The notes beneath the pieces are model-generated. The model saw only the letters and a program-made list of their open reading frames with translations, did no database searches and was not told where the DNA came from. A stretch of 64,000 nt of DNA from positions 62,001 to 126,000 of the forward strand of contig CALDHM010000016.1 of NCBI GenBank assembly GCA_937941455.1, read 5' to 3'. The DNA comes from an uncultured Pirellulaceae bacterium. GTDB taxonomy: Bacteria; Planctomycetota; Planctomycetia; Pirellulales; Pirellulaceae. The translations under genes were made by a program, and so were the position numbers. Of the stretch, positions 8,654 through 21,812 are shown one piece after another (positions within the stretch are counted from its first letter, which is position 1; every line of letters begins with the position of its first letter).

Positions 8654-8772
8654 CGTAAGGCCGCCGGGAGTTGATTGGCCACCGCGTGCCAGCGCCTATT
8701 TTAAGATTTGCAGCAGAGCAGGGCAGTAAAGTGAAACAGCTTGGTCCGCTCTCGAACTTTGAGCAAGCGACG

Positions 8773-9225
8773 ATGAACGAAGCCACAACGAATCGCATCC
8801 TGATTGCGGATGATAATCAAGCCAACTGCGAACTCCTCGAGGCCTACCTCAGTGCCCTCGATTGCGAAATCGAGATCGCCATGGATGGGCAGCAAACCTT
8901 GGACAAGGCCCGCTCCTTTTCGCCGGATTTGATCCTGCTCGATGTGATGATGCCCAAATACAGCGGCTTCGAGGTGTGCGCCAAAATCAAACAGGATCCA
9001 CAGTTGCGCAAGATCATGGTCTTGATGGTCACGGCGCTGAATGAGATCGGCGATATTCAACGGGCGGTTGATGCCGGAACCAACGATTTTTTGTCGAAGC
9101 CGGTCCAAAAGGTCGAACTACTCAAACGCGTCGAAAACCTATTGGCCTTGAAGCATATTTCGGACGAGAACGAACGGCTTCGCCAATACATCCAACGCAT
9201 CGAGGAAACGACGCGGATCCAGTAA
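8773..9225 (+). CDS. Single-domain response regulator (CheY-like receiver)
   Basis: A 150-residue protein consisting of a receiver domain and a short helical tail. The acidic pair is in 'LIADDNQAN', the phospho-acceptor Asp is in 'LILLDVMMP', the switch Thr is in 'MVTAL', and the conserved Lys is in 'LSKPV'. No DNA-binding or enzymatic output domain follows, only a charged helix ('DENERLRQYIQRIEE') that may be a coiled coil. It therefore probably acts by protein contact. No histidine kinase lies nearby. The frame is open further upstream, but the ATG at 8773 places the first strand correctly and sits downstream of a good promoter. Confidence 0.88.
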   Translation: MNEATTNRILIADDNQANCELLEAYLSALDCEIEIAMDGQQTLDKARSFSPDLILLDVMMPKYSGFEVCAKIKQDPQLRKIMVLMVTALNEIGDIQRAVDAGTNDFLSKPVQKVELLKRVENLLALKHISDENERLRQYIQRIEETTRIQ

Positions 9226-9313
9226 GCGTTCAAATAGGCCCCGCCGTCGGTGGGTCGCTGCGGGAACGGCCACTTCAAAACGTTTTCGGGCAACAGGGCA
9301 CGCATTGCGAACC

Positions 9314-10264
9314 ATGGCTAATTCGCAAATCAAAACGGTCGAAGAGTTCGTAAGTTTTCAAAATGCTCTCGCCACCTATCACGTCATTCGTTTGGGCTTC
9401 GAGGTCGGCATCTTGCGCCTGCTCGAGCCCGGGCAAATGACTTCGCCGCAAATCGCGGCCGCGTTGAAACTCGATCCGTGGCGGACTGAACTGTTGTGTT
9501 CGGCGCTGTGCCATACGGGTCTGCTGGAACGTTACGAGGACGATTTCGCGTTGAGCACGATGGCCCGCCTCGTGCTCCATGACGATTGGGATGCAGGGTT
9601 TCGCGGAGCTTTGGAAGTCCTGGCCAAACCGCCTGCTGACGAGGAGCGTTCCGGGACGGGCTTGAATTGGCACGACTGGACGAGGACCCCCGCGGCGATG
9701 GATGCGGCAGAGGCACTGGATTTCGGGAAAACTCGCCGGGGTCTACGCGTGCTGGAAATAGGTGGAGGTTCGGCTGTCTTCAGCTGTGCCCTGGCCCATC
9801 GCGATCCGGATTGCCAAGTGACCGTGCTTGATGCGCCTGAGAACCTGCAGCGTTCCCTGGAGATGGTCGCAAGCGTCGGAATTTCCGGGCAGTTTACGCC
9901 GCTGATCGGCGATCCGAAGCAGCCCAATTTAGCGGCGGAAACCTATGATCTTGTCTTGGTTGTGGGCTTTCTCCATCAGCTTCATCCCGAGCAGGCTGCT
10001 GCCTGGATTCAAAACATCGCCAACTCGATCAAACCGGGTGGGGAACTGGCCATCATCGACTATTTTCATGGCCAGACCAAGGGCAACAAAACTATGGCCA
10101 TGTGGGAACTTGAACTGACCCTGCGGAATCGGTTCGCGAAGCTGCATTCTCCGCCAACCATCCGAAGCTGGATGTTAGCGGCAGGCCTCGACCAGGTTCA
10201 ATTCGCCTTTTTGCCATCGGCTCCCCACGTTTGGGGCCTGGTGCTTGGCCAAAAACCGGATTGA
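9314..10264 (+). CDS. SAM-dependent methyltransferase, O-methyltransferase family 2 type
   Basis: The architecture is typical of the acetylserotonin/small-molecule O-methyltransferase group. An N-terminal winged-helix dimerisation region comes first ('LGFEVGILRLLEPG' and 'TSPQIAAALKLDPWRTELLC'). A Rossmann methyltransferase domain follows, with the SAM loop 'VLEIGGGSAVFS' near residue 145 and acidic strand 2 'VTVLDAPE'. A later 'GFLHQLHPEQAA' and 'LKPGGELAIIDYF'-like segment matches motif post-IV; the actual residues there are 'IKPGGELAIIDYF'. About 316 residues. The substrate cannot be told. ATG 9314 is preferred to the TTG three codons earlier. Confidence 0.82.
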   Translation: MANSQIKTVEEFVSFQNALATYHVIRLGFEVGILRLLEPGQMTSPQIAAALKLDPWRTELLCSALCHTGLLERYEDDFALSTMARLVLHDDWDAGFRGALEVLAKPPADEERSGTGLNWHDWTRTPAAMDAAEALDFGKTRRGLRVLEIGGGSAVFSCALAHRDPDCQVTVLDAPENLQRSLEMVASVGISGQFTPLIGDPKQPNLAAETYDLVLVVGFLHQLHPEQAAAWIQNIANSIKPGGELAIIDYFHGQTKGNKTMAMWELELTLRNRFAKLHSPPTIRSWMLAAGLDQVQFAFLPSAPHVWGLVLGQKPD

Positions 10265-10366: not shown

Positions 10367-11227
10367 TTAATTTGCGTCCCGCGGAAACGATACCGTGCTT
10401 CGGTCCAAATGCGCGAGTCCGTCCATCAAATTTTGGGTTCGCACATGACCGGATTCGGGTATCAATTGGCCAAGGCCCGCAGGAATCCTCGTCGCATCGG
10501 ATCGTCCCCAGTCGATGATGAGCAGCAGGCTCTCCACCATGCGGCGATTCAAATCGGGATTGGCCATCCATTTTTGGCATTGGCCTCTCATACCGTGTTC
10601 TGCCGCATTCAGCCAAATCTCCACTCGCTCTGATGCCAATGCACCACTGTCCTCTTGTTGCTCTCGCTCGTGATCGTGGACACGCTTGGGATCGAAAGCG
10701 AATTGGATCGAGATCTCTGTCCAAGGGATCAGCGACAAGAACAGATCGGTCCATTTTTCCACCAAGTTACGCGTCCGATTGAAACGGGCGAACGCTGCCG
10801 AGTTCGTGTGTTGGAACTCCAACAAAATTCGCAAGGCGCGATTCCGCGATTCGATATGAGTGATGAAGGCACTGCGGGCCAAGAGGCCAAGTCGGTCAAT
10901 CCCAGTTATTTGCGCCAATACAACGCAGAGCGCCGTCCAAATACGGGTGGCTCCCTCCGAGACCAGGACTTCCTCCAGCACGATTTCTAATGCGGGCCAA
11001 GGATCAAAATCTGGTCGAATGCACCGCAAGTCATCTTGGAACGTTTTTAAGGCGATCGCCCAACGATTCGCTCGACTCCTGTGATGCAACCAAAACCTTT
11101 CGAAAGTTTGGATTTGTGTAACGTCGATTCCATCGATGACATCCGCGGCGTGGGCCGCCATCCAACAAGCGATTTCAAATTGGTCTCGGGCATGCATGTC
11201 GAACCAAGCTCCATTCGCCAAATTCAT
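10367..11227 (-). CDS. Unknown helical protein
   Basis: A protein of about 286 residues, not recognised. It is rich in Trp, Arg and Leu and looks all-helical, with no signal peptide, membrane span or obvious catalytic motif. The reading frame is supported by its amino-acid make-up and by the absence of a better frame opposite. The frame extends upstream to 11305, but the ATG at 11225-11227 ('MNLANGAWFDMHARDQFE') gives a more natural N-terminus and leaves a perfect 11-bp inverted repeat just outside the gene. It is convergent with the methyltransferase. Confidence 0.6.
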   Translation of the reverse strand: MNLANGAWFDMHARDQFEIACWMAAHAADVIDGIDVTQIQTFERFWLHHRSRANRWAIALKTFQDDLRCIRPDFDPWPALEIVLEEVLVSEGATRIWTALCVVLAQITGIDRLGLLARSAFITHIESRNRALRILLEFQHTNSAAFARFNRTRNLVEKWTDLFLSLIPWTEISIQFAFDPKRVHDHEREQQEDSGALASERVEIWLNAAEHGMRGQCQKWMANPDLNRRMVESLLLIIDWGRSDATRIPAGLGQLIPESGHVRTQNLMDGLAHLDRSTVSFPRDAN

Positions 11228-11245
11228 AGATTCAAAGAGAAGTTG

Positions 11246-11276
11246 CCGACTCGCCGGTCGGAGGTCGGCGAGTCGG
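11246..11276. repeat. Perfect 11-bp inverted repeat (hairpin) upstream of a reverse-strand gene
   Basis: CCGACTCGCCG and CGGCGAGTCGG are separated by 9 bases. The hairpin ends 19 bases before the chosen ATG of the reverse-strand gene. It could be a leader hairpin, an operator or a terminator; no T-run directly follows on the reverse strand. Confidence 0.5.
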
Positions 11277-11797
11277 CCTTTGGTTTTGCTTGAAGAACAA
11301 AGCAAGCCATGCGCCGAAAATGGTGGACTGACGGTCCTGTTGGTCTACAGCCCAGAAAAGTAGCGAAAAATGGCGGGTTACCCGGTTCTCGCCCAAAATT
11401 TCGGTCTCTTAAGAAAATTTTCATGTTGACGATTGGCAACAGCAGTGCCCGAAAATCAACATTTTGTCGAGAATCAGTGGCAACGCCGCCCCTAGACATC
11501 TGGGGGAGGATGTAGCCGGTCAGGGAATCCGTTCGGTCATAAGTCGGAGTTCTCTGTGGTGCCCGTCGATCGCACAAAACAATTCCAGGCAATAGCGTTC
11601 TCGACGTACCGCCAGCTGTGCGGCCTCGGCGGTATAAGAACCAAGAGAAAGCGCCCACCGATTCACTTCAGTGAGCCCCGAACATGACAAGCCGCGAGTC
11701 TAGAACGATTGTCTCAGACTCAACAGATCGAATCGACTTAAACGGCGCAGCGAAAATTCGAAATTAACGCTCCGATCGAGTTTGTGAGCGTGAGGAT
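11277..11797. other. Gap without recognised gene
   Basis: About 520 bp lies between the unknown protein's leader and the 3' end of the kinase-tubulin gene. The open frames are short and featureless. It must hold the promoter of the reverse-strand unknown gene. No hairpin with a T-tail was found that would terminate the kinase gene. Confidence 0.4.
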
Positions 11798-14700
11798 TTA
11801 GAGGATTTGCTCGATCGGCGTCCAGTTGACGTCGATGCGCGTTCGGATTCGCTTGGCGATATCCAAGCAATTCGGCAGCTTTTCAAGCAAACGGCGGGTG
11901 ATGGTGGGGATTTCCACGTTCTCGGTCTCTTCGATCAACACGAGGCTCCCCGCGGTCGCTTTGACGGATTGGACTTGCAGGTTGACCCAGACCTCGATCG
12001 CCTTGGCGATCATCTGAGTCGGCGATAATTCGGGGATGGCTACCAGCATTCGACTGACCCCGCCGCATTGATCCAGCATCGGACGTGCTTGCCCAACGAG
12101 GATCGTGATCTGGTCTGACAATTCGAGACTTTGCCGGTTGCTAGCTTCGCTTGCCAGCGAGTCGACGTCGAGCGAACGGGCTGCGGCCACGATTTCGTTT
12201 TGAGCGTACAAGGATAACTCCCGGATCGTGGCATCATGGTGAACCGGTTCGTTGACGAGCAATTCGCGGTACGAGCCGAGCGGAGCCACGGCGTTGGTGT
12301 AGAAACGCAGTTCGGTGGCATCGACCAGCGCCGGGAGCTTCGCCGTGAACATCCGCAAGACCTGGCGTTCCCAACCGAAAGCCCGTCGTTCGAGATTCTT
12401 CAGCGGTTCGTCACTAATCACCGTTTTCGCATAAGCATCGAAATGGATTCGGGCTCGTTGAATCGATTCGGCATGCTGACTAAAGTGCCGGGCCATGGTT
12501 TGGCACGTGAGACACAATGCCTCTTGCACAAACAGCTCGTCAAACAGAACGACGGCATCGGCCATAAAATCTGCGATCTTATTGCTGGGAAAAACCTTCG
12601 TCTTCGGCTGATCGCACAGAGCCTGGATCGTCCGCTTGATTTCTTTCAGCTTCAGCCGAAGTTCGTTGGCCTGCGAACGAGCCACCGCCTGCTGCGCCTC
12701 GATTTTCTCGATCGCTGTTTTCGACAACAAAAAGTAAGTAGCGAATGAAAAACGTTTCCCCAAAAAAACTGATTGGAGCCATCGATGGACTTTTTCTCGA
12801 TATTCCTCGACGATATCGGAGGCGCTATCGACCAGGATCGTCGCCAGGTCGAAGTTCGTATTTCCCGGCAGGCAAATGACAGAATCCTGCGCATTGTTGG
12901 CGTTGTCTTGGGGATACATCTTGATGATCTTTTTCCAAACTTTCGCGATATCGTCAGCGACGGCTTCTCGCTTCTTTCGCAACTCGGAAATCGCCTCGTT
13001 CACAACCAGCTTGCCGCGTTGCTGCAATTGTGCCTGGAATGCGGATTGCAGTTGCTGCATGGACAAATCTTCAAGAAAACCGTCAGGCAGTTGTTTGTTC
13101 TCGTCATTCGTTGACGAATAACCGAGCCACCCATCGACGATCGACTTGACAATCAACCGAATTAATAGGGTCGCCGTGTCCGGCGACAGGCCGGCGCTCG
13201 ACAGACCGAATGACCGCAGCGTGAAGGCACCTAATTCGCAATCGAGTTCACGAACACGATCGAGCGCGGTCCCCACGGTGGAGCACGAGTTGTAGAAGAC
13301 GTAGTCGGCGATTTGATCGATTTTCTGCAACATTTCAGGGCCAGCGACATTCTCGCCGAGGTCGATGAAGTACGGAAAGTCGAACGGTAATTCCTCCAAT
13401 ACCTCGGGAAGCAGCACCGTTTTATCCCCTTGATAGCCGACCTGGCCGATATGAGCCAATTCGCTCAGGAAAGCGAGCGTATTCGCTGCTGAAAGATTGC
13501 CATCTCTCTCGTGGACATTCAGCCCATGCAGCAGAATGGCACTAATCGCGTCCGTGGGTAAACCGACTTGGCTGAACAAAGTTTTCACGGCGTAGGCCAG
13601 ATCGATTGTCATGCCACTGCCGACGCCACCTGAAATGGAAGACACGATATACACCCGGGCTTTGCCTCTTTTGAATTCCCGGCCGAGACGTTCCGCAGAA
13701 ATGGCCAGAGAATCCAGAGCCGACAATTTTTCCGCTTTCTCTTCGAGCCGCTTCCAGAAGGCATCGAAATTGTCGATGAACGCGAGTCGGCCCAGAGGGC
13801 GAATTCCCTCCGTTTGCAGATTTTTCGGCACGCTATAAATCCAGCGGCGATTCAACCATTCGCAATGAATCTTAGCTCGGCTGCGATATTCCTCAGGGCG
13901 CCGCAGCGGCAAATGCAGGATCTCATCGTGCCCCAAAAAAGAGGGCGCTTCCTCGGACAGCGGATGATCCAGCGGTGTTCGATCCGCATCCAAGCACAAT
14001 ATCTGAATTGCCGGAATTTCCGGATGAAACAGGGAATTCTCCATGCGCCGTTTCACCCGGCGGCAGACTTCTATCCCGAGACGACCCACGCCGATGATGA
14101 GTGTGGGGATCAGTTCGTTAGGGAGATTTTCCAGGACCGGAAAATCGACGAGTTCCGCTTCGCGTCTTTCCTCTCGGAGCGCATTCTGAGACAACACCAC
14201 CGTGCGATCGACCAACCGCGGGTTGAGCACGGGATTCACGACGGTCGATTTGGTGTCTTCATCCACGGGAATTCGTTCTTTTCGCAGTAACCGCTTTTTA
14301 TCGCGATGCAACGACTTTTGATTTTTGAGAGCCATAACGAAGTCCCGGCACGAACTAAATCGCAATTCAGGTTTTTTTGCAAGGGCTCGCAACATCGCCG
14401 GATGATCAATCTTGGGCATCAGCGACAAATTCGGTTTAGCGCTCAGATGCTGGGCGGTCAGTTGCGCCTGGGATTTCCCATCGAAACAGCGCTCACCCGT
14501 GAGCATTTCGTAAAAGACCAGTGCCAGGCTGTATTGATCGCTGAATGGGCTAGGTCGGCCATCGTACAATTCCGGCGCCGCATAGGCCGGCGTGAGGCCG
14601 GCCATCATCGTGACGCGATCGTCTTGCAAATGTTTGACTAAGCCGAAGTCAGCCAATTTGATATGATTCCCAACCAGCAGCAAGTTTTCAGGTTTGACGT

Positions 14701-15118
14701 CTAAATGCTGCAAGTTATGCTCGACCGCGAGATAGTCGAGTGCTTCGGCAGTTTCGCTGATGTACTGCAAGAGTTCTTCGCGCGGGATGCCCGGCAGACC
14801 TTGCGCTGCATACTCATTGAACAAATCGGCCAGCGACTTATCCGCTAGTTCTGTTATGACGATCAAACGCTGGTCAACGACTTCTATCCGCTCGAGCGAA
14901 AGCAAAAAGGGATGACGCAGCTTCTTGACGGTATCCAGTGCGGCCAGCTCGTTTTGAGCTTTTTTTTCGTCCTGAAATCCACCGACGATTTTCAAGGCTT
15001 TGAGAATTCCGCCGGGAGCCTCGACCTTAAAAACTTCCCCGCATCCTCCGGCACCAATCCTGTCCACAATGCGGTAGCCCAGAAGATTGTCCGATTTGAA
15101 TGGATGTGCGATGATCAC
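11798..15118 (-). CDS. Ser/Thr protein kinase fused to a tubulin-like (Tubulin_2 type) domain
   Basis: An 1106-residue fusion. Residues 12-265 form a complete Hanks kinase: Gly loop IGAGGCGEV (21-29), ATP Lys 43 in 'ALKI', catalytic 'HLDVKPEN' (Asp140, preceded by Leu so non-RD), DFG 157-159, and APE 181-183. After a linker, residues of about 338-720 resemble the bacterial tubulin-like family. The Rossmann start is 'LIIGVGRLGIEV', and a tubulin signature GGVGSG (497-502) sits in 'VSSISGGVGSGMTIDLAY'. The remaining 400 residues are helical. The domains suggest a GTP-binding, possibly polymerising protein under kinase control. The AAA+ ATPase lies upstream on the same strand after a 457-bp gap. 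The tubulin assignment rests on motif order and recalled family patterns. Confidence 0.85.
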   Translation of the reverse strand: MIIAHPFKSDNLLGYRIVDRIGAGGCGEVFKVEAPGGILKALKIVGGFQDEKKAQNELAALDTVKKLRHPFLLSLERIEVVDQRLIVITELADKSLADLFNEYAAQGLPGIPREELLQYISETAEALDYLAVEHNLQHLDVKPENLLLVGNHIKLADFGLVKHLQDDRVTMMAGLTPAYAAPELYDGRPSPFSDQYSLALVFYEMLTGERCFDGKSQAQLTAQHLSAKPNLSLMPKIDHPAMLRALAKKPELRFSSCRDFVMALKNQKSLHRDKKRLLRKERIPVDEDTKSTVVNPVLNPRLVDRTVVLSQNALREERREAELVDFPVLENLPNELIPTLIIGVGRLGIEVCRRVKRRMENSLFHPEIPAIQILCLDADRTPLDHPLSEEAPSFLGHDEILHLPLRRPEEYRSRAKIHCEWLNRRWIYSVPKNLQTEGIRPLGRLAFIDNFDAFWKRLEEKAEKLSALDSLAISAERLGREFKRGKARVYIVSSISGGVGSGMTIDLAYAVKTLFSQVGLPTDAISAILLHGLNVHERDGNLSAANTLAFLSELAHIGQVGYQGDKTVLLPEVLEELPFDFPYFIDLGENVAGPEMLQKIDQIADYVFYNSCSTVGTALDRVRELDCELGAFTLRSFGLSSAGLSPDTATLLIRLIVKSIVDGWLGYSSTNDENKQLPDGFLEDLSMQQLQSAFQAQLQQRGKLVVNEAISELRKKREAVADDIAKVWKKIIKMYPQDNANNAQDSVICLPGNTNFDLATILVDSASDIVEEYREKVHRWLQSVFLGKRFSFATYFLLSKTAIEKIEAQQAVARSQANELRLKLKEIKRTIQALCDQPKTKVFPSNKIADFMADAVVLFDELFVQEALCLTCQTMARHFSQHAESIQRARIHFDAYAKTVISDEPLKNLERRAFGWERQVLRMFTAKLPALVDATELRFYTNAVAPLGSYRELLVNEPVHHDATIRELSLYAQNEIVAAARSLDVDSLASEASNRQSLELSDQITILVGQARPMLDQCGGVSRMLVAIPELSPTQMIAKAIEVWVNLQVQSVKATAGSLVLIEETENVEIPTITRRLLEKLPNCLDIAKRIRTRIDVNWTPIEQIL

Positions 15119-15575
15119 GTCGATTCCCTAGTTGCTTTACAGCTGTTTATGAACGCGTCCCGTTCGGGCAAATCAACCAACAAGCGTTGATTCGGATGCC
15201 TTGATGCGCCCAGATTTAAGATTCGCCTGCGGGTTGATCCTGCAACATGATTGATGAAACTGCCGAGACGAGTTTGTCCGCGGACTTTCAGCAAATCATG
15301 TTAAAACCCCCTAAACATTAGGTTAGAAATTTCACCGCGATTTCTTTTTACAGGCCAAACTCGGCGGCCAGATGATTGGCCAGGGTTATCGGCGTTACGT
15401 ACGTCATAAGCGGACCATGCTCCAGTGGTCTGTATGCCTTAAACTCGATTCGCATTGGGTCGGAGCTTGTCCACATCGCGATTTTCCCGAGTGGAAGCAA
15501 CCGGTCTATGAACAAAATCGTTAGCATTTTCCCGAGCCGAATCAGGGGCGGCGTGCAGCACGGGAAATCTATAAC
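15119..15575. other. Gap between AAA+ ATPase and kinase-tubulin gene
   Basis: This 457-bp stretch separates two same-strand genes and probably holds the kinase gene promoter. A plus-strand frame of 67 codons (15376-15579) has no recognisable content and was not accepted. No terminator hairpin with a T-tail was seen on the reverse strand. Confidence 0.4.
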
Positions 15576-16910
15576 TTAGGACTCCAGTACCGGAGTCAAA
15601 TAACTGGCCATGATGCGGTCGATGTAGTCCTCACGGAGCTCCGGTTTCAGATCGAAATAATGACAAAAATTACTGACTTGCCACAGGATGTCGCGAGGTT
15701 GGCAGCGGCGCAAGCGACGATTCTGCCCAATGTAGTATTTTTCGATGATGTAGTTCACCACGACGGGGTGATATTCAATTTCAACCTTTTCGCAATACAG
15801 CCTGAACAGCCGATGAAACTCTTCAGGGGTCGGATCCTTCATGTAGATTTTGTAGGGAATCCGCCGGAGAAATGCTTCGTCGACCAGATCGTGAGGTTTG
15901 AGATTCGTCGAGAAAATAATCAGCTGTTCGAAGGGGACTTGAATCTTCTTCCCCGTCGACAGCGTCAAAAAATCAATACGATTCTCTAGCGGAATGATCC
16001 AACGATTCAACAGCTCACGTGGCTCGATCCGCTGCCGACCGAAATCGTCGATCAGCAGACTGCCACAATTGCTTTTCATCTGCAGGGGAGCTTCGCTGAT
16101 TTTACTATTCGCATCGAAACGAATCTCTAACGATTCGATGGTCAATTCGCCGCCGACGATGACCGTAGGCCGCTTGATACGTAACCATCTGCGGTCGTAG
16201 TTTTCCAGTTCCAGGCTGGTGTCGCCTTGCTCCGCGGCAACGCGGTGATAGGCCGCATCGTAGAGTTTGATGATTTGACCATCCTCATAAATCGCGTGGG
16301 GAATCCAGACCTCTTGACTGAAACATTGCGTGATCCGCTGCGCAATGGTGGACTTGCCGTTACCCGGCTCTCCGTACAGAAACATCCCGGCACCGGAGTT
16401 GATCGCCGGCCCAAGGTCATCGTACAGGCTTTCGTTGATCGAAATGTCGCGAAAGGCTTTTTTCAATTGCACGGCTTTGGGCCGCTCATTGCGAATCGAT
16501 TGAGCTTCGACCGACAGAATGTAATCGGTAAGCGTCACCGGGGCAGGGCCGACATAAGCACATTGGCGCATGTATTGATGTGCACGTTCTTGGCCGGCCT
16601 CGCTCAATGAATAGTAATAATCATTCAGAGGCGCGGCTCCTCGATGAACGATCATCTGGCGAACACGCAGATGCCTCAGCAATTCTTCGACGATATTGAA
16701 GTTAATGCAGATTTCATTGGCGAGTTGACGGCCGCTATTCTGGCCAGACACCAGCAACCGCTTGAGAATCAAACTATCGATCAAGGTGTGCGGAATGCCC
16801 GTGTCGGCAATCGTCAGCGGATCATGCGGTCGGAAATTTTCCTCCATCATGATGGTTGCCAAAAGGTTATTGGCAAACGACGAGCTGCTGATATTTGATG
16901 GAATGGACAT
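15576..16910 (-). CDS. AAA+ ATPase with N-terminal helical/winged-helix region
   Basis: A protein of about 444 residues. The Walker A motif is GEPGNGKST (about 180-188). The Walker B-like strand is 'LLIDDFGRQ', with a second Asp where many AAA+ proteins have Glu. Sensor-1 Asn is in 'LIIFSTNLKP', and an Arg-rich 'FLRRIPYKI' sits at the expected arginine-finger or sensor region. The first 120 residues include 'GRQLANEICINFNIVEELLRHL', which looks like a winged helix. The family was not pinned down; it may be a remodelling ATPase for its neighbours. The frame is open to 17228, but ATG 16910 ('MSIPSN') fits the conserved-looking start and leaves a 419-bp divergent control region shared with the FHA-EAL gene. 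Confidence 0.78.
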   Translation of the reverse strand: MSIPSNISSSSFANNLLATIMMEENFRPHDPLTIADTGIPHTLIDSLILKRLLVSGQNSGRQLANEICINFNIVEELLRHLRVRQMIVHRGAAPLNDYYYSLSEAGQERAHQYMRQCAYVGPAPVTLTDYILSVEAQSIRNERPKAVQLKKAFRDISINESLYDDLGPAINSGAGMFLYGEPGNGKSTIAQRITQCFSQEVWIPHAIYEDGQIIKLYDAAYHRVAAEQGDTSLELENYDRRWLRIKRPTVIVGGELTIESLEIRFDANSKISEAPLQMKSNCGSLLIDDFGRQRIEPRELLNRWIIPLENRIDFLTLSTGKKIQVPFEQLIIFSTNLKPHDLVDEAFLRRIPYKIYMKDPTPEEFHRLFRLYCEKVEIEYHPVVVNYIIEKYYIGQNRRLRRCQPRDILWQVSNFCHYFDLKPELREDYIDRIMASYLTPVLES

Positions 16911-17329
16911 GATGACACTCGCTAAATGACTACCCAGAAGGGTACCAATTTCCAGATGGCTAGGATCGCTTCGGAGCGTGTAACTATATAAGTCACTTCT
17001 GGAATACTGCCGGGGAAATTCGAAAATCGACCCTTTATCGATGCGGTCCGCGCTGGCCTCGTAAACCGATCGCTTGGAGTTCTCGGCCTGAGCGAGCGGC
17101 GCGGGGTGTTCGGCAGTCCGAGATTTTCCGCAAAAATCGACAAGATCGCTACAGTCGAATTGTGCTGCCATGGGGTGATCTCGCAGCGCCGCTATTTTTG
17201 AGAAAATCCCACCCCTCGGACTCAACAAAACCTAAAAAACAGGGGAACGATCGACTCAAGCGAAGTTGGAGACGATGTTCACTGCTTTTTGACATTGAGA
17301 TTGCGTTTGCACGATTCAGGATCTCGATC
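16911..17329. promoter_or_regulatory. Divergent control region between AAA+ and FHA-EAL genes
   Basis: 419 bp separates the two chosen starts, so both promoters should lie here. A TATATA-rich patch near 16984-16992 is a weak -10 candidate for the reverse-strand gene. TTGACA occurs at about 17289 near the FHA-EAL start, but without a matching -10. The alternative is that the ATPase frame really begins at 17171 or 17228. Confidence 0.35.
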
Positions 17330-18436
17330 ATGCTCGCCCAAAGCGAATCGACGAATAGCAAAGTCATTTGGAAATTGATTGGCCAGACTTCGGAAGATGG
17401 CCAAATGCACCACATTTCCATCACCGGCGAAACATTCACGGTAGGTCGGAACGCCACGTCGAATCTGTGCCTTCCCGTCAGCTCAGTTTCCAGCCGACAT
17501 GCCGAAATGCGGGTTGTTGGCGACCGCCTGTTTGTCAAAGATTTGTCCAGCACCAACGGTACCTACCTCAATGGAACCAAAATCAGGGGTGAAGTCGAAC
17601 TGAAATCGAGTGATTTGATCCAATTCGCCAAAATGGTGTTTCGGGTCAATCGCTGCGGCGCCGACACCGGCAGTCGCACGGTGTCCCATGCGTCCGAAGA
17701 TGGCGCGATGGCGATCATGCAATTCGACCGCTTGATCAACGACGGTGGGTTGCTCCCGTTCTACCAGCCGATCGTCGAGATGTCGAATCGCCAAGTCACC
17801 GGCTTCGAAGTCTTAGGCCGCAGCCGCTTGTATGGCTTGCAAATGCCTGATCAGATGTTCCGCGCGGCCGCGAAGCTCAATATGGAGGCGGAACTGAGTG
17901 AGGGTTTTCGCTATCGCGGAGTTCAAGTCGCCCAATCGCGCCTCGACAAGTACATCCTGTTTTTGAATACGCATCCTAATGAGATCGGAACGACTCGGCT
18001 GTTGCACTCGCTGGCCACGTTGCGCGAAATCGCCCCCAGTCAACCCATTGCCGTAGAAATTCACGAGGCCGCGCGGGCTCAACTGGCCGTCATCAAACAA
18101 CTGCGGATCGTTTTGCGCGACCTCGACATGAGTCTGGCCTTCGACGATTTCGGCGTCGGCCAGTCGAGAATCGTCGAATTGTCGGAAATTCGACCGGACT
18201 ATCTGAAATTCGATATGCAGCTCACCAAGAACATCGATCAAGCCTCGGCCTCTCACCAGGAATTGATTCGTTCGTTCACCAAAATGGTTAACGACCTGGG
18301 GATTGAAACGTTGGCAGAAGGCGTGGAGAACGAAGCCAGCCACCAATTGCTGCAGGACATGGGATTCAAGTTCAGCCAAGGATTTTTGTACGGACGCCCG
18401 CAACCGATCGGAGAACTTCAGCTTCCCAAGTCGTAG
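17330..18436 (+). CDS. FHA domain fused to EAL domain: phosphothreonine-reading c-di-GMP phosphodiesterase
   Basis: A 368-residue protein. The FHA domain (about 35-90) keeps its ligand loop residues: GR (39-40), S-S-R-H (54-57) and NGT..NGT (76-83). These normally bind phosphothreonine peptides. The EAL domain (about 135-360) retains every catalytic residue I could place: E160 of the E-V-L motif, N213, E243, D272-D273 in FDDFG, K293, E330 or E333 in AEGVE, and Q350. It should therefore hydrolyse cyclic di-GMP. The start at ATG 17330 has an upstream AGGAT. It is divergent from the AAA+ ATPase and close to the kinase fusion, the obvious candidate source of phosphothreonine. Confidence 0.9.
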   Translation: MLAQSESTNSKVIWKLIGQTSEDGQMHHISITGETFTVGRNATSNLCLPVSSVSSRHAEMRVVGDRLFVKDLSSTNGTYLNGTKIRGEVELKSSDLIQFAKMVFRVNRCGADTGSRTVSHASEDGAMAIMQFDRLINDGGLLPFYQPIVEMSNRQVTGFEVLGRSRLYGLQMPDQMFRAAAKLNMEAELSEGFRYRGVQVAQSRLDKYILFLNTHPNEIGTTRLLHSLATLREIAPSQPIAVEIHEAARAQLAVIKQLRIVLRDLDMSLAFDDFGVGQSRIVELSEIRPDYLKFDMQLTKNIDQASASHQELIRSFTKMVNDLGIETLAEGVENEASHQLLQDMGFKFSQGFLYGRPQPIGELQLPKS

Positions 18437-18752: not shown

Positions 18753-19281
18753 TTCTCGCGAATCCCCGAAATCCACGGGTCGAATCTTGCGGTTTCGGTC
18801 CGGGGACCGCCCCTTCGGAACTATGGAAACTCCTCAAACCGCCAAAGAGTAAACTCGGGGACTCGGCATTGTCGCTGGCGGACTCCATCGCGATGTTCGC
18901 GTGAGTTAACGAAGCTTTGTTACTCGCCGGAACGTGCTAGCGTCCGGTTTTCTCGTGGCCGGAACGCGCGTGGTCAGCGTTTTCTACCAGCCGGAACACC
19001 CTAGCATCCGGTTTTCGCCAGAACCGCGGTCCAGCGCCCTGTGGATGAGGAGTGCAGCAACAACCTAACCGTTTGAAGCGGAGGCGGAAACCGCCGCGCG
19101 AATTGGTAGCCAGCCGGCATCCTGAAGCGAGTATTTTCTTTCTACCGATAGCGTCCGTACGTTAACGCGCGGTTGCGTCCTCGGCTGCAACCGGTAAACT
19201 TTCCGGAAGGTCGGCACCAGTTCCTTGGTGACGCGATTGACCAACAGCGTCGGCAACACTCGACTGATTCAGGATGCATGG
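18753..19281. other. Gap with reverse-oriented repeat copies
   Basis: 529 bp lies between rpmG and recJ. The left part has no feature that I recognise. The middle holds partial copies of the dispersed palindromic repeat (18911-19050). The right part must contain the recJ promoter. Confidence 0.5.
18911..19050 (-). repeat. Dispersed palindromic repeat, copy C (one and a half copies, reverse orientation)
   Basis: Two units lie side by side. The first, at about 18911-18953, has GCTTTGT, then GCCGGAACGTGCTAGCG and TCCGGTTTTC. The second, at about 18988-19050, has GCCGGAACACCCTAGCATCC and GGTTTTCGCCAGAACCGCGG, then CAGCGCCCTGTGG. Both match the reverse complement of copy A. The second lacks its outer end, which suggests nested or recombined insertions. 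Confidence 0.6.
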
Positions 19282-21069
19282 ATGACGAAACGCTGGGTAA
19301 TTCGACCTCATGATCAACAGGTCGTTGACGATCTCTGCCGCACTCGCGGAATCCATCCCGTGTTGGCCCAAATTCTGGCCAGCCGGAATTGCAGCGGCGA
19401 TAACCTGGATACCTTTTTCAAGAATCGGATGAGCGACCTGCGCTTGCCGACTGAATTACCCGGAGTCGATGCGGCAGTCCCCATCATCTTGGATGCCGTT
19501 CGCGACCGCAAGCGGATCGTAATCTATGGAGACTACGATTGCGATGGCATGACGTCCACGGCCATCATGGTTCAATGCTTGCGGCAGCTGGGAGCTAACG
19601 TCGGGTATTTCGTGCCCAACCGAGTCGATGACGGTTATGGATTGAACTGTCAGCAAATCCGCAGACTGCGGGAAATCGGGACAGATCTTGTCGTGACCGT
19701 CGACTGCGGCATCGCGAGTCTGACCGAAGTCGAATTGGCTAGAGAGTTAGGTCTGCGGATCGTGATCACGGATCACCATCTCCCAGGGGCTTCACTGCCG
19801 CCAGCAAACGCCATCGTACATCCGGCGTTGCCGGGGACCCATTACCCCTTTGCCGGACTTTGCGGCGCAGCGGTCGCATTCAAGTTGGCGTGGGCCGTAT
19901 GTCAAAAACACGCGGGAGCCGTCAAACTGCCGCCGGATCTGCGCGACGTGTTGCTTCGTGCCTGGGGGCTGGCCGCGATCGGCACTATTGCGGATGTTGT
20001 ACCACTGGTCGATGAAAACCGACTCATGGTGATGCACGGCCTCAAATTACTGAAGACTCACGCTTCGGCCGGCCTACGAGCCTTGATGCGATTCGCCAAG
20101 CTCGATCCCGAGAAAGATTTGTCCAGCGAGGATATCGCCTTTTCCCTCGGGCCGCGACTCAACGCGGCGGGACGACTCGAGCAGGCTCAGCTCGGGGTCG
20201 AACTGCTGTTGTGCGACGATCCGGAGCGTAGCCGCGAACTCGCCGAGTATTTGGATAATCTGAACAAGAGCCGCGACAGCTTGGAAAAGGCGATCTTACG
20301 AGACATCAAAAAACAAATGGATCGGGACTTCGATCCCAAACACGATGCAGCCTTAGTATTTGCCGATCCAGTTTGGCACCAGGGAGTTCTCGGCATCGCA
20401 GCGGGAAGGCTGGCGGAGAAATATAACCTACCCACTATTGTACTTCGCAATGATCCGCAAACGGGTCCCCACGCGACGGGTTCGGCCCGGTCCATCCCTG
20501 GCCTCAACCTCTACGAAGTTTTGCAAGATTGTTGCGAGCATCTCGTGAGTTTTGGCGGACATGCGGCCGCCGCAGGCTTAACTCTTCTGCACGATCAGAT
20601 TCCGGCGTTTCGCGAATCGTTCTGCGAAGCGGTGCTGCGACGGCGCAGGCCGGAGGATAATCAGCCCGAGTTGAGGATCGATGCCGAAGTCGCTCTCTGT
20701 CAACTCAACGTGGACGCGGTGAAGTGTATCGAGCAACTCGCGCCGTTTGGGCAGGGCAATCCACGACCGGTACTCTGCGTGAATCGAGTGCAACTGGTCG
20801 ATGAACCGAAGACGCTGGGCAGTGACGGCCAGCATCTCGCGGTGACGATTCGCCAGGCCGATGTCTCCCTGCGCTGCGTGGCGTTTGGGCAAGGGGCCTG
20901 GGCGGAAGATTTGCAACGAGAATCGCACTACGATTTCGCCTTCAAGCCAGTGATCAACGAATTCCGCGGCTGGTCCAGCGTGGAACTGCATCTACTGGAC
21001 TACCGTCTATCGTCTACTGATCGGCGGCTCGTCGAGACGGCCACGGGTTGCCCAACCAATCTGTCCTGA
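19282..21069 (+). CDS. recJ: Single-stranded-DNA-specific exonuclease RecJ
   Basis: A 595-residue protein with DHH-family phosphoesterase motifs. The metal-binding 'YGDYDCDGMTS' is near residue 84, 'VTVDCGI' follows, and DHH is in 'ITDHHLPG' near 163. The C-terminal DHHA1 signature region is 'SFGGHAAAAGL', preceded by 'GSARSIPGLNLYE'. RecJ degrades single-stranded DNA 5' to 3' in recombination and mismatch or base-excision repair. The start is ATG 19282, which gives the usual length; the open frame reaches 19225. The next gene, a uracil-DNA glycosylase, starts 15 bp after the stop, so the two repair genes are probably co-transcribed. Confidence 0.95.
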   Translation: MTKRWVIRPHDQQVVDDLCRTRGIHPVLAQILASRNCSGDNLDTFFKNRMSDLRLPTELPGVDAAVPIILDAVRDRKRIVIYGDYDCDGMTSTAIMVQCLRQLGANVGYFVPNRVDDGYGLNCQQIRRLREIGTDLVVTVDCGIASLTEVELARELGLRIVITDHHLPGASLPPANAIVHPALPGTHYPFAGLCGAAVAFKLAWAVCQKHAGAVKLPPDLRDVLLRAWGLAAIGTIADVVPLVDENRLMVMHGLKLLKTHASAGLRALMRFAKLDPEKDLSSEDIAFSLGPRLNAAGRLEQAQLGVELLLCDDPERSRELAEYLDNLNKSRDSLEKAILRDIKKQMDRDFDPKHDAALVFADPVWHQGVLGIAAGRLAEKYNLPTIVLRNDPQTGPHATGSARSIPGLNLYEVLQDCCEHLVSFGGHAAAAGLTLLHDQIPAFRESFCEAVLRRRRPEDNQPELRIDAEVALCQLNVDAVKCIEQLAPFGQGNPRPVLCVNRVQLVDEPKTLGSDGQHLAVTIRQADVSLRCVAFGQGAWAEDLQRESHYDFAFKPVINEFRGWSSVELHLLDYRLSSTDRRLVETATGCPTNLS

Positions 21070-21083
21070 TTTCGGTCGAGCCC

Positions 21084-21812
21084 ATGCCCCTGCCGTTTGC
21101 CGAAAGTTTTCCGTATGCTTCGACTTGGGGACGGGAGCTACGCGATGTTCTCGATACCCCGATGATGCGTACGCTGGAGGAACGACTTCGGCAAGCTCGG
21201 CAGCGCGCTGTCATTTTCCCAGCCGAGCAGGATGTCTTTCAAGCGTTTTGGTTGACTCCGCTGGAACAGGTGCGTGTGGTCATCGTTGGCCAGGACCCTT
21301 ACCATGGTCAAGGCCAAGCCCATGGTCTGAGCTTCTCGGTAAGGCCACCCACGAAGCCTCCCCCATCACTGCGCAATATTCTCAAGGAACTGGCGGCCGA
21401 TTTAGGGGCTCCTCCGCGAGTGGACGGCGATTTAACCTCGTGGGCTCGCCAAGGGGTGTTATTGCTGAATACGATCCTCACTGTTGAACAGGCTCAACCT
21501 TTATCCCACGCCTCGTACGGTTGGCAAGCGTTCACGACGGCGGTCATTCGGCGACTTGCCGCACGGCCTCAGCCGATTGTGTTTGTGCTGTGGGGACGCG
21601 ATGCTTGGCAGGTCGAAACATTGCTTGACGGCACAGCCCATGTGGTCCTTAAGGCTCCTCATCCTTCGCCGCTGTCGGCCCATCGGGGCTTCTTTGGCAG
21701 TCACCCTTTTTCGCAAATCAATCGGTACTTGTCCGAGTTCGGCGTTTCCCCAATCGACTGGCTAATTGTCGAGCGGGACGCGATCGCGAGCCATCCGCCG
21801 CGCTGCCGTTGA
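21084..21812 (+). CDS. ung: Uracil-DNA glycosylase, family 1
   Basis: A 242-residue enzyme that removes uracil from DNA. The water-activating motif is GQDPYHGQGQAHGLSFSV, with catalytic Asp at about residue 71, and the minor-groove loop is 'HPSPLSAHRGFFG' near the C-terminus. Both are hallmark family-1 motifs. A TTG-started frame would overlap the recJ stop; ATG 21084 gives the standard N-terminus 'MPLPFAESFP'. It lies between recJ and a CPBP protease gene. Its TGA overlaps the next ATG by one base (TGATG), a typical coupled junction. Confidence 0.95.
   Translation: MPLPFAESFPYASTWGRELRDVLDTPMMRTLEERLRQARQRAVIFPAEQDVFQAFWLTPLEQVRVVIVGQDPYHGQGQAHGLSFSVRPPTKPPPSLRNILKELAADLGAPPRVDGDLTSWARQGVLLLNTILTVEQAQPLSHASYGWQAFTTAVIRRLAARPQPIVFVLWGRDAWQVETLLDGTAHVVLKAPHPSPLSAHRGFFGSHPFSQINRYLSEFGVSPIDWLIVERDAIASHPPRCR

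Follow-up and report, generated by a model that had tools for sequence, protein, structure and literature searches.

Gene content of the locus

A stretch of 64,000 nucleotides from an uncultured Pirellulaceae bacterium (GenBank assembly GCA_937941455.1, contig CALDHM010000016.1, positions 62,001 to 126,000; the whole stretch is hereafter termed the window) was analyzed with regard to three genes, which encode a kinase fused to a tubulin-like protein (kinase-tubulin), an AAA+ ATPase and a protein with an FHA and an EAL domain (FHA-EAL). The kinase-tubulin, FHA-EAL and ATPase genes constitute a conserved module in the order Pirellulales. Their open reading frames (ORFs) were found where an initial annotation of the sequence had placed them, at 11798-15118 on the minus strand (1106 aa, GTG start), 15576-17228 on the minus strand (550 aa) and 17162-18436 on the plus strand (424 aa). 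Most relatives of the ATPase align from about residue 105-130, and its coding sequence is likely to begin near 16910, at M107 of the ORF (15576-16910), while the alignment of relatives points to M57, near 17330, as the likely start of FHA-EAL (17330-18436). With these later starts the two divergent genes need not overlap, and an intergenic stretch of about 420 bp (16911-17329) would lie between them.

Domains and fold of the kinase-tubulin protein

Pfam scanning of the 1106-residue protein returned Pkinase (E 2.6e-32, residues 15-231) and Tubulin_2 (97.1 bits against a cut-off of 27, E 1.6e-27, residues 340-614), both over cut-off, which bears out the proposed fusion of a kinase with a tubulin-like domain. 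The kinase domain (residues 15-266; 14321-15076, on the minus strand like all features of this protein) keeps K43, E57, H138-L-D140, K142, N145 and D157-F-G in 98-99% of 109 sequences. It is of Hanks type by its catalytic lysine, glutamate, HxDxKxxN and DFG, and the replacement of HRD by HLD makes it a non-RD kinase. The GTP-binding T4 loop of the tubulin domain, GGVGSG, was located as annotated at residues 497-502 (13613-13630), and its glycines are conserved at 100% (G497), 99% (G498), 90% (G500) and 96% (G502) in the same 109 sequences. Conservation by region amounted to 0.71 in the kinase, 0.20 in the variable linker that follows it (residues 267-337, 14108-14320; mean top-residue frequency over residues 267-335), 0.49 in the first part of the tubulin domain, 0.23 in the helical part and 0.41 in the C-terminal part.

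A structure model covering residues 326-1106 was built from 46 sequences, with a mean predicted local distance difference test score (pLDDT) of 86.4 and a predicted template modelling score (pTM) of 0.82. On comparison by VIA-align, CetZ (3zid) ranked first (Z 26.5, 296 residues, model positions 11-761) and FtsZ (2r6r) gave Z 22.0 over 290 residues (model positions 12-781), the aligned ranges extending close to the ends of the solved tubulin-family chains. The model places elements S1 to H9 at its residues 14-340, helices until about 693 and a strand-helix-strand-strand-helix succession at 696-755. In tubulin the order of elements is S8-H10-S9-S10-H11, and by this order and the aligned ranges the model is read as a complete tubulin fold with an insertion in the H9-S8 connection. 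It suggests that the full fold is split by about 350 helical residues into a first part from S1 to H9 (residues 338-666; 13121-14107), a poorly conserved helical insertion (residues 667-1014; 12077-13120) and a conserved C-terminal part (residues 1015-1106; 11801-12076), whose elements would be S8-H10-S9-S10-H11 and whose conserved residues are G1019, G1020, R1023, E1064, R1090, R1094, D1096 and W1099.

The canonical FtsZ/tubulin profile PF00091 reached at best 11.5 bits on the protein (E 0.58, at the T4 region), below its cut-off of 33. When the tubulin-plus-helical alignment was run as a profile against solved structures, coiled-coil and helical-bundle chains came first and no tubulin was among 51 matches (E up to 1); the tubulin part alone gave six matches, all above E 0.3, CetZ and TubZ among them. 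For the tubulin assignment the fold comparison was taken instead of these searches; with Tubulin_2 from the profile search and a tubulin fold in a model of pLDDT 86, the middle domain belongs to the tubulin family, as had been proposed.

At E <= 1e-30 the tubulin part was detected in 141 of the order's 396 genomes, and in 122 of the 253 with a completeness of 90% or more and a contamination of 5% or less. The kinase-tubulin is thus common in the order, and the initial description of the three genes as unusual does not hold for it. In an even draw of 392 genomes from the phylum, 18 had the tubulin part at E <= 0.001; ten of these score below 1e-70, comprising the genome of the window, six of the same family and three of the same class. 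Among 80 named loci, all but L169 and L215 carry planctomycete titles. L169 is a contig labelled Candidatus Nealsonbacteria with a kinase-tubulin and is likely a mis-binned planctomycete contig.

Linkage of the three genes

The protein families were represented as hidden Markov model profiles and searched in all six frames, a locus qualifying when its kinase-tubulin gene was flanked by 5 kb or more in both directions. Three sets of loci, which overlap in genomes, were examined. The named set came from one genome scan (138 stretches, 122 confirmed, best 80 kept), from which 45 loci qualify and 35 were left out. The second comprised the window and 71 of 80 relatives' stretches (nine fetched for FHA-EAL or ATPase copies elsewhere were left out), 66 of them with a kinase-tubulin and 47 qualifying, and the third consisted of 40 stretches fetched later, 25 of which qualify. 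FHA-EAL was present in 43 of the 45, 44 of the 47 and 24 of the 25 loci, respectively; the ATPase in 37, 35 and 20, always together with FHA-EAL; and a REC-GGDEF-CBS protein, designated F3, in 10, 18 and 5. The genes are therefore linked across the order (43/45 for FHA-EAL and 37/45 for the ATPase) and not scattered independently, which would have refuted the initial annotation, and the adjacency of kinase-tubulin and FHA-EAL in 43 of 45 loci is not due to chance, as judged from the counts and not from a formal chance model.

The order and strand of the module genes vary while the partners remain constant. FHA-EAL is divergent from the ATPase followed by the kinase-tubulin in 25 named loci and 23 of the second set; it lies upstream on the same strand with F3 divergent in 10 named loci (5 with the ATPase) and 18 of the second set (10 with the ATPase); and ATPase, kinase-tubulin and FHA-EAL share a single strand in 6 named loci, 1 of the second set and 10 of the third. 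Tubulin_2 matches in other gene settings occur in L092, L098, L110 and L111, where the ORF caller labelled no kinase-tubulin fusion; the only one of these four loci scanned by Pfam has a Tubulin_2 protein without a kinase (L092_7).

AAA+ ATPase

No Pfam AAA model was over cut-off on the 550-residue ORF, the best being AAA_5 at 0.0019. Walker A, Walker B (DDFG), sensor 1 (STN) and a paired arginine were nevertheless located, with key residues 96-100% conserved (n=82), and by Walker A, Walker B, sensor 1 and the arginine finger the protein belongs to the AAA+ class. Its N-terminal part (16560-16829, minus strand) was modelled as a winged helix with pLDDT about 85-95, in agreement with the annotated AAA+ ATPase with a winged-helix-like N-terminus. 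The small regulators ZitR and AdcR were among the matches listed by Foldseek and, owing to their short length, should fall on the winged-helix part (the query range was not listed). Apart from the winged helix, hardly any conclusion is based on the ATPase model, which is weak overall (pLDDT 66.9, with a poor core). The ATPase profile is nearest, weakly, to classical AAA proteins, with spastin leading and Vps4/CdvC included among the best 60 of 146 matches; NCBIfam CdvC scored 29.5 bits against a cut-off of 650. The window's genome holds two further paralogues (G000:C22:140272-141522 and G000:C7:44042-45286).

FHA-EAL protein and its REC-GGDEF-CBS neighbour

Both domains were over their Pfam cut-offs in the 424-residue ORF: FHA (PF00498) with E 2.9e-17 and 63.3 bits against 20.7 (residues 93-155; 17438-17626, plus strand), and EAL with E 2.4e-39 (residues 189-413; 17726-18400, plus strand). 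FHA domains bind phosphothreonine through the residue set G-R, S-x-x-H, N-G and N, and EAL domains have a nine-residue catalytic set. All nine catalytic residues are present in the window, though the protein is divergent, just as it had been annotated. From 160 modules with both kinase-tubulin and FHA-EAL, 102 non-redundant modules were retained (one per 80% kinase-tubulin identity group), 11 of which were held out, having kinase-tubulins less than 80% identical to earlier ones. The FHA residues G, R, S, H, N, G and N are full in 99 of the 102, the window included, and two of the other three are without letters there. The EAL catalytic residues number nine in 60 modules and eight in 2, which leaves the domain intact in 62, and five or fewer in 40.

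The state of the EAL domain goes with the presence of F3. With F3 called at 150 bits, 61 modules have an intact EAL and no F3, 34 have F3 and an EAL that is not intact, six have neither and one has both. Four of the six (L085, L192, L196, L223) are truncated or lie where a contig ends, L192 retaining the first five EAL sites, which leaves L084 and L186 with a dead EAL and no F3 detected. The sole intact module with F3 is L116 (F3 score 224), in which the neighbouring protein carries a GGDEF domain that is intact (Pfam 2.1e-39) and a CBS match below cut-off. L119 resembles it (GGDEF 1.4e-41) but has an F3 score of 136, and L155 and L163 combine an intact EAL with F3-like scores of 141 and 120. 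Among 35 F3 proteins the GGDEF motif is intact only in that of L116, one protein being without letters there, and the receiver aspartate is kept in 30. The active-site residues of the two cyclic di-GMP (c-di-GMP) domains thus tend to go or stay together.

The rule that modules without F3 have an intact EAL and those with F3 a dead one held in 11 of 11 held-out modules: of the eight without F3, seven have nine residues of nine and one has eight, and in the three with F3 one or two of the nine remain. No FHA-EAL was seen in the short stretches around four more novel kinase-tubulins (L228-L230, L271). In L116 and L119 a same-strand run of intact GGDEF protein, intact FHA-EAL, ATPase and kinase-tubulin was observed, with both c-di-GMP enzymes intact, and L087 carries a second F3 copy with GGEEF.

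Linker threonine motif

The linker was searched for the motif T-x-x-[LIVFM]-[SDGN], scored against shuffled linkers with the serine version as control, in a main set of 94 linkers thinned from 109 and a held-out set of 14 thinned from 15 novel proteins among 49. The threonine motif occurred in 60 of the 94 linkers against a shuffled mean of 22.5 and a maximum of 37 in 2000 runs, while the serine version occurred in 27 against 25.5. Among the held-out linkers, the threonine motif was found in 9 of 14 against 3.5 expected, a count reached by 5 of 5000 shuffles, and the serine version in 6 against 3.8, reached by 734 of 5000. On these counts, the idea of serine sites serving the same role was rejected. 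FHA domains favour phosphothreonine, and a threonine-only signal is what an FHA dock would leave. The instance in the window is T306-V-V-L-S (14189-14203, minus strand), a predicted phosphothreonine dock for the FHA domain. In the cultured relatives Lacipirellula limnantheis and Botrimarina hoheduenensis (loci L203 and L212), the threonine position of the motif is occupied by A in L203 and by T in L212.

Proposed signalling unit and its alternatives

We lean, if only just, towards a single signalling unit with a tubulin-superfamily protein at its base, in which the linker of the kinase-tubulin is phosphorylated by the protein itself and then bound by FHA-EAL. The kinase-tubulin would bind nucleotide and probably self-assemble, and assembly would gather the kinase heads, which could then phosphorylate linker threonines such as T306. 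Conservation of the binding residues and of the motif suggests that the FHA domain of the partner docks on the linker phosphothreonine, which would bring the EAL domain onto the tubulin protein. By its residues, this EAL domain should hydrolyse c-di-GMP in the window and in most relatives, and the unit would thereby link local c-di-GMP with the state of a cytoskeletal protein. A dead EAL paired with a degenerate REC-GGDEF-CBS protein, as on the second branch, would serve for sensing or as a scaffold. Remodelling or release of the complex is the probable role of the ATPase. The fullest version, a kinase-bearing tubulin filament that recruits a c-di-GMP phosphodiesterase through linker threonine and FHA, is reset by the AAA+ ATPase, has a sensor pair as its sister branch and is interrupted in its fold by a helical arm of 350 residues, is tentative and somewhat doubtful as a whole. 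If true, a cytoskeletal protein, a Ser/Thr kinase and c-di-GMP would be tied into one unit, with the filament setting the place of c-di-GMP destruction. A defined partner set is now available for the tubulin-like protein of planctomycetes, and the joint decay of the EAL and GGDEF active sites allows enzymatic and sensing forms of one module to be compared as they occur in nature.

Several observations weigh against this proposal. The initial annotation had the FHA domain read the mark of the kinase and recruit a c-di-GMP phosphodiesterase; the first part gains from the invariant FHA residues and the threonine-specific linker motif, but an active phosphodiesterase is not universal, the EAL domain being not intact in 40 of 102 modules (39 degenerate, 1 cut off). 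No FHA-EAL lies within 5 kb of the kinase-tubulin in 3 of 47 and 2 of 45 loci. The gap between ATPase and kinase-tubulin is usually short, with a median of 39 nt over 92 pairs (redundant loci included), which favours the proposal; in the window it is 458 nt by that measure, which makes a single operon less sure there. The T7 loop of the tubulin domain looks incomplete by sequence, with a single acidic position, D620 (D in 69 of 109), and GTP hydrolysis is consequently doubtful. The linker motif was chosen after inspecting linkers and is missing from 34 of 94 and from 5 of 14 held-out linkers. The link between EAL and F3 also shifts with the cut-off, intact modules with an F3-like gene numbering 4 (L116, L119, L155, L163), 1 and 0 at 100, 150 and 250 bits. 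It rests on few independent events: in the FHA-EAL tree the dead set forms one side of a single branch, and in the kinase-tubulin tree the EAL/F3 state needs four changes with one well-supported independent pair only. This points to one main split with perhaps some exchange, and no phylogenetic significance is claimed for the link, a Fisher value that takes no account of kinship being set aside.

Some of these points would suit a co-regulated signalling locus in which FHA-EAL reads phosphothreonines on other proteins and the tubulin domain is a non-polymerising, nucleotide-sensing regulator of the kinase. The incomplete T7 loop and the 34 linkers without a threonine motif are in its favour, yet the threonine-specific enrichment falls within the kinase-tubulin's own linker and FHA-EAL is linked to it in 43 of 45 named loci, so we regard this arrangement as unlikely.

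With regard to the ATPase, its winged helix could mark it as a DNA-binding protein or transcription factor whose location is incidental. Consistent with this are its two paralogues in the window's genome, the 16 neighbourhoods of second copies elsewhere, in which the ORF caller labelled no kinase-tubulin or FHA-EAL, and the 25 of 40 modules without intact EAL that have no ATPase within 5 kb. It does lie within 5 kb in 61 of 62 intact-EAL modules, against 15 of the 40 others (short contigs included), and an incidental location is accordingly judged improbable.

A defence or conflict system, with the tubulin-family protein assembling on infection as in the GTPase/tubulin systems of PMC7159879, is very unlikely. 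The kinase part does match PADLOC kinase models (mad6, 4.7e-39; PD-T4-6), the ATPase weakly matches anti-phage IetA (PADLOC 1.5e-7; NCBIfam 25 bits against a cut-off of 510), tubulin proteins are present in the published conflict systems and the family is patchy, in 141 of 396 genomes. However, the best 25 of 29 PADLOC matches lie on the kinase and extend no further than the linker (residue 313 at most), and in the six window ORFs scanned no vWA, GTPase, HSP70 or nuclease domain was over the Pfam cut-off and no effector domain was seen (the neighbourhoods of relatives were not surveyed). A relative of the window's recJ gene near the module in 15 of 61 named loci with FHA-EAL is a weak sign of a stable setting, although the other sets have one in just 4 of 59 and 5 of 30.

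To our knowledge planctomycetes divide and shape their cells without FtsZ. That the kinase-tubulin serves as a general stand-in for it in cell division, as the tubulin fold of the model and the lack of a PF00091 match over cut-off in the window's genome (13 of 14 control genomes match) might invite, is highly improbable, since the family is missing at E <= 1e-30 from 255 of 396 genomes of the order and from 131 of the 253 genomes of high completeness and low contamination, and yet these bacteria divide.

Relation to known systems

The gene setting of YfiN, a diguanylate cyclase, is unrelated to that of the module. YfiN acts as a division inhibitor and likewise ties a c-di-GMP enzyme to cell division, but its domains differ from those of the FHA-EAL module, and the pertinent part of PMC4992967 mentions neither a kinase nor FHA.

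The kinase-tubulin fusion has been published before (PMC2875224, PMC9871819). In 2010 Makarova and Koonin described in the first of these papers the FtsZl1 family, which is Tubulin_2 (PF13809), with an N-terminal kinase in four planctomycete proteins, and a reviewer's remark in the same paper places the diguanylate phosphodiesterase Psta_0487 beside FtsZl1 in Pirellula staleyi. The Tubulin_2 domain, long coiled coil and conserved C-terminal part are common to that family and the present protein. Their account stresses vWA, kinase and GTPase neighbours, whereas the partners here are FHA-EAL and AAA+, and describes the C-terminal domain as mostly helical, whereas the model would put it inside the tubulin fold. 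PMC9871819 reports a kinase at the N-terminus of a tubulin-like protein in Planctomycetes, and according to PMC11032199, of the associated domains confined to cytoplasmic planctomycete Ser/Thr kinases, the tubulin-like domain is the most frequent; the latter shows the same kinase and tubulin-like pairing, its relevant portion leaving gene context, FHA-EAL and the ATPase unmentioned. The corresponding portions of PMC5147048 and PMC4672568 hold nothing further on gene partners. The GAP1-N2 GTPase-centred tubulin conflict systems (PMC7159879) share a tubulin domain fused to a C-terminal helical region, but their partners, as given there, are GTPases, vWA and FNIII proteins of firmicutes and actinobacteria, unlike the module here.

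Among the matches listed in the open-licence literature, subscription journals being outside its scope, no paper was found on the FHA-EAL link, the ATPase link, the linker motif or the split fold, and no record of EAL loss going with a REC-GGDEF-CBS gene. The module is real, conserved and partly known, and its partner set, paired enzyme decay and testable docking motif appear to be new.

Neighbouring genes

Downstream of the kinase-tubulin, a 312-aa gene at 10367-11305 (minus strand) has no Pfam match, and its relatives lie within 5 kb in 15 of 45 named, 3 of 47 second-set and 7 of 25 later loci. Further on that side are a response-regulator receiver protein (8671-9225, plus strand) and a methyltransferase (9305-10264, plus strand), and beyond FHA-EAL lie a RecJ-type DHH protein (19225-21069, plus strand) and a uracil-DNA glycosylase (21048-21812, plus strand). 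In L090/L091 (G070 contig 1) the module is split, with the kinase-tubulin about 26-28 kb from the FHA-EAL/ATPase pair, and this pair adjoins relatives of the window's recJ and udg genes.

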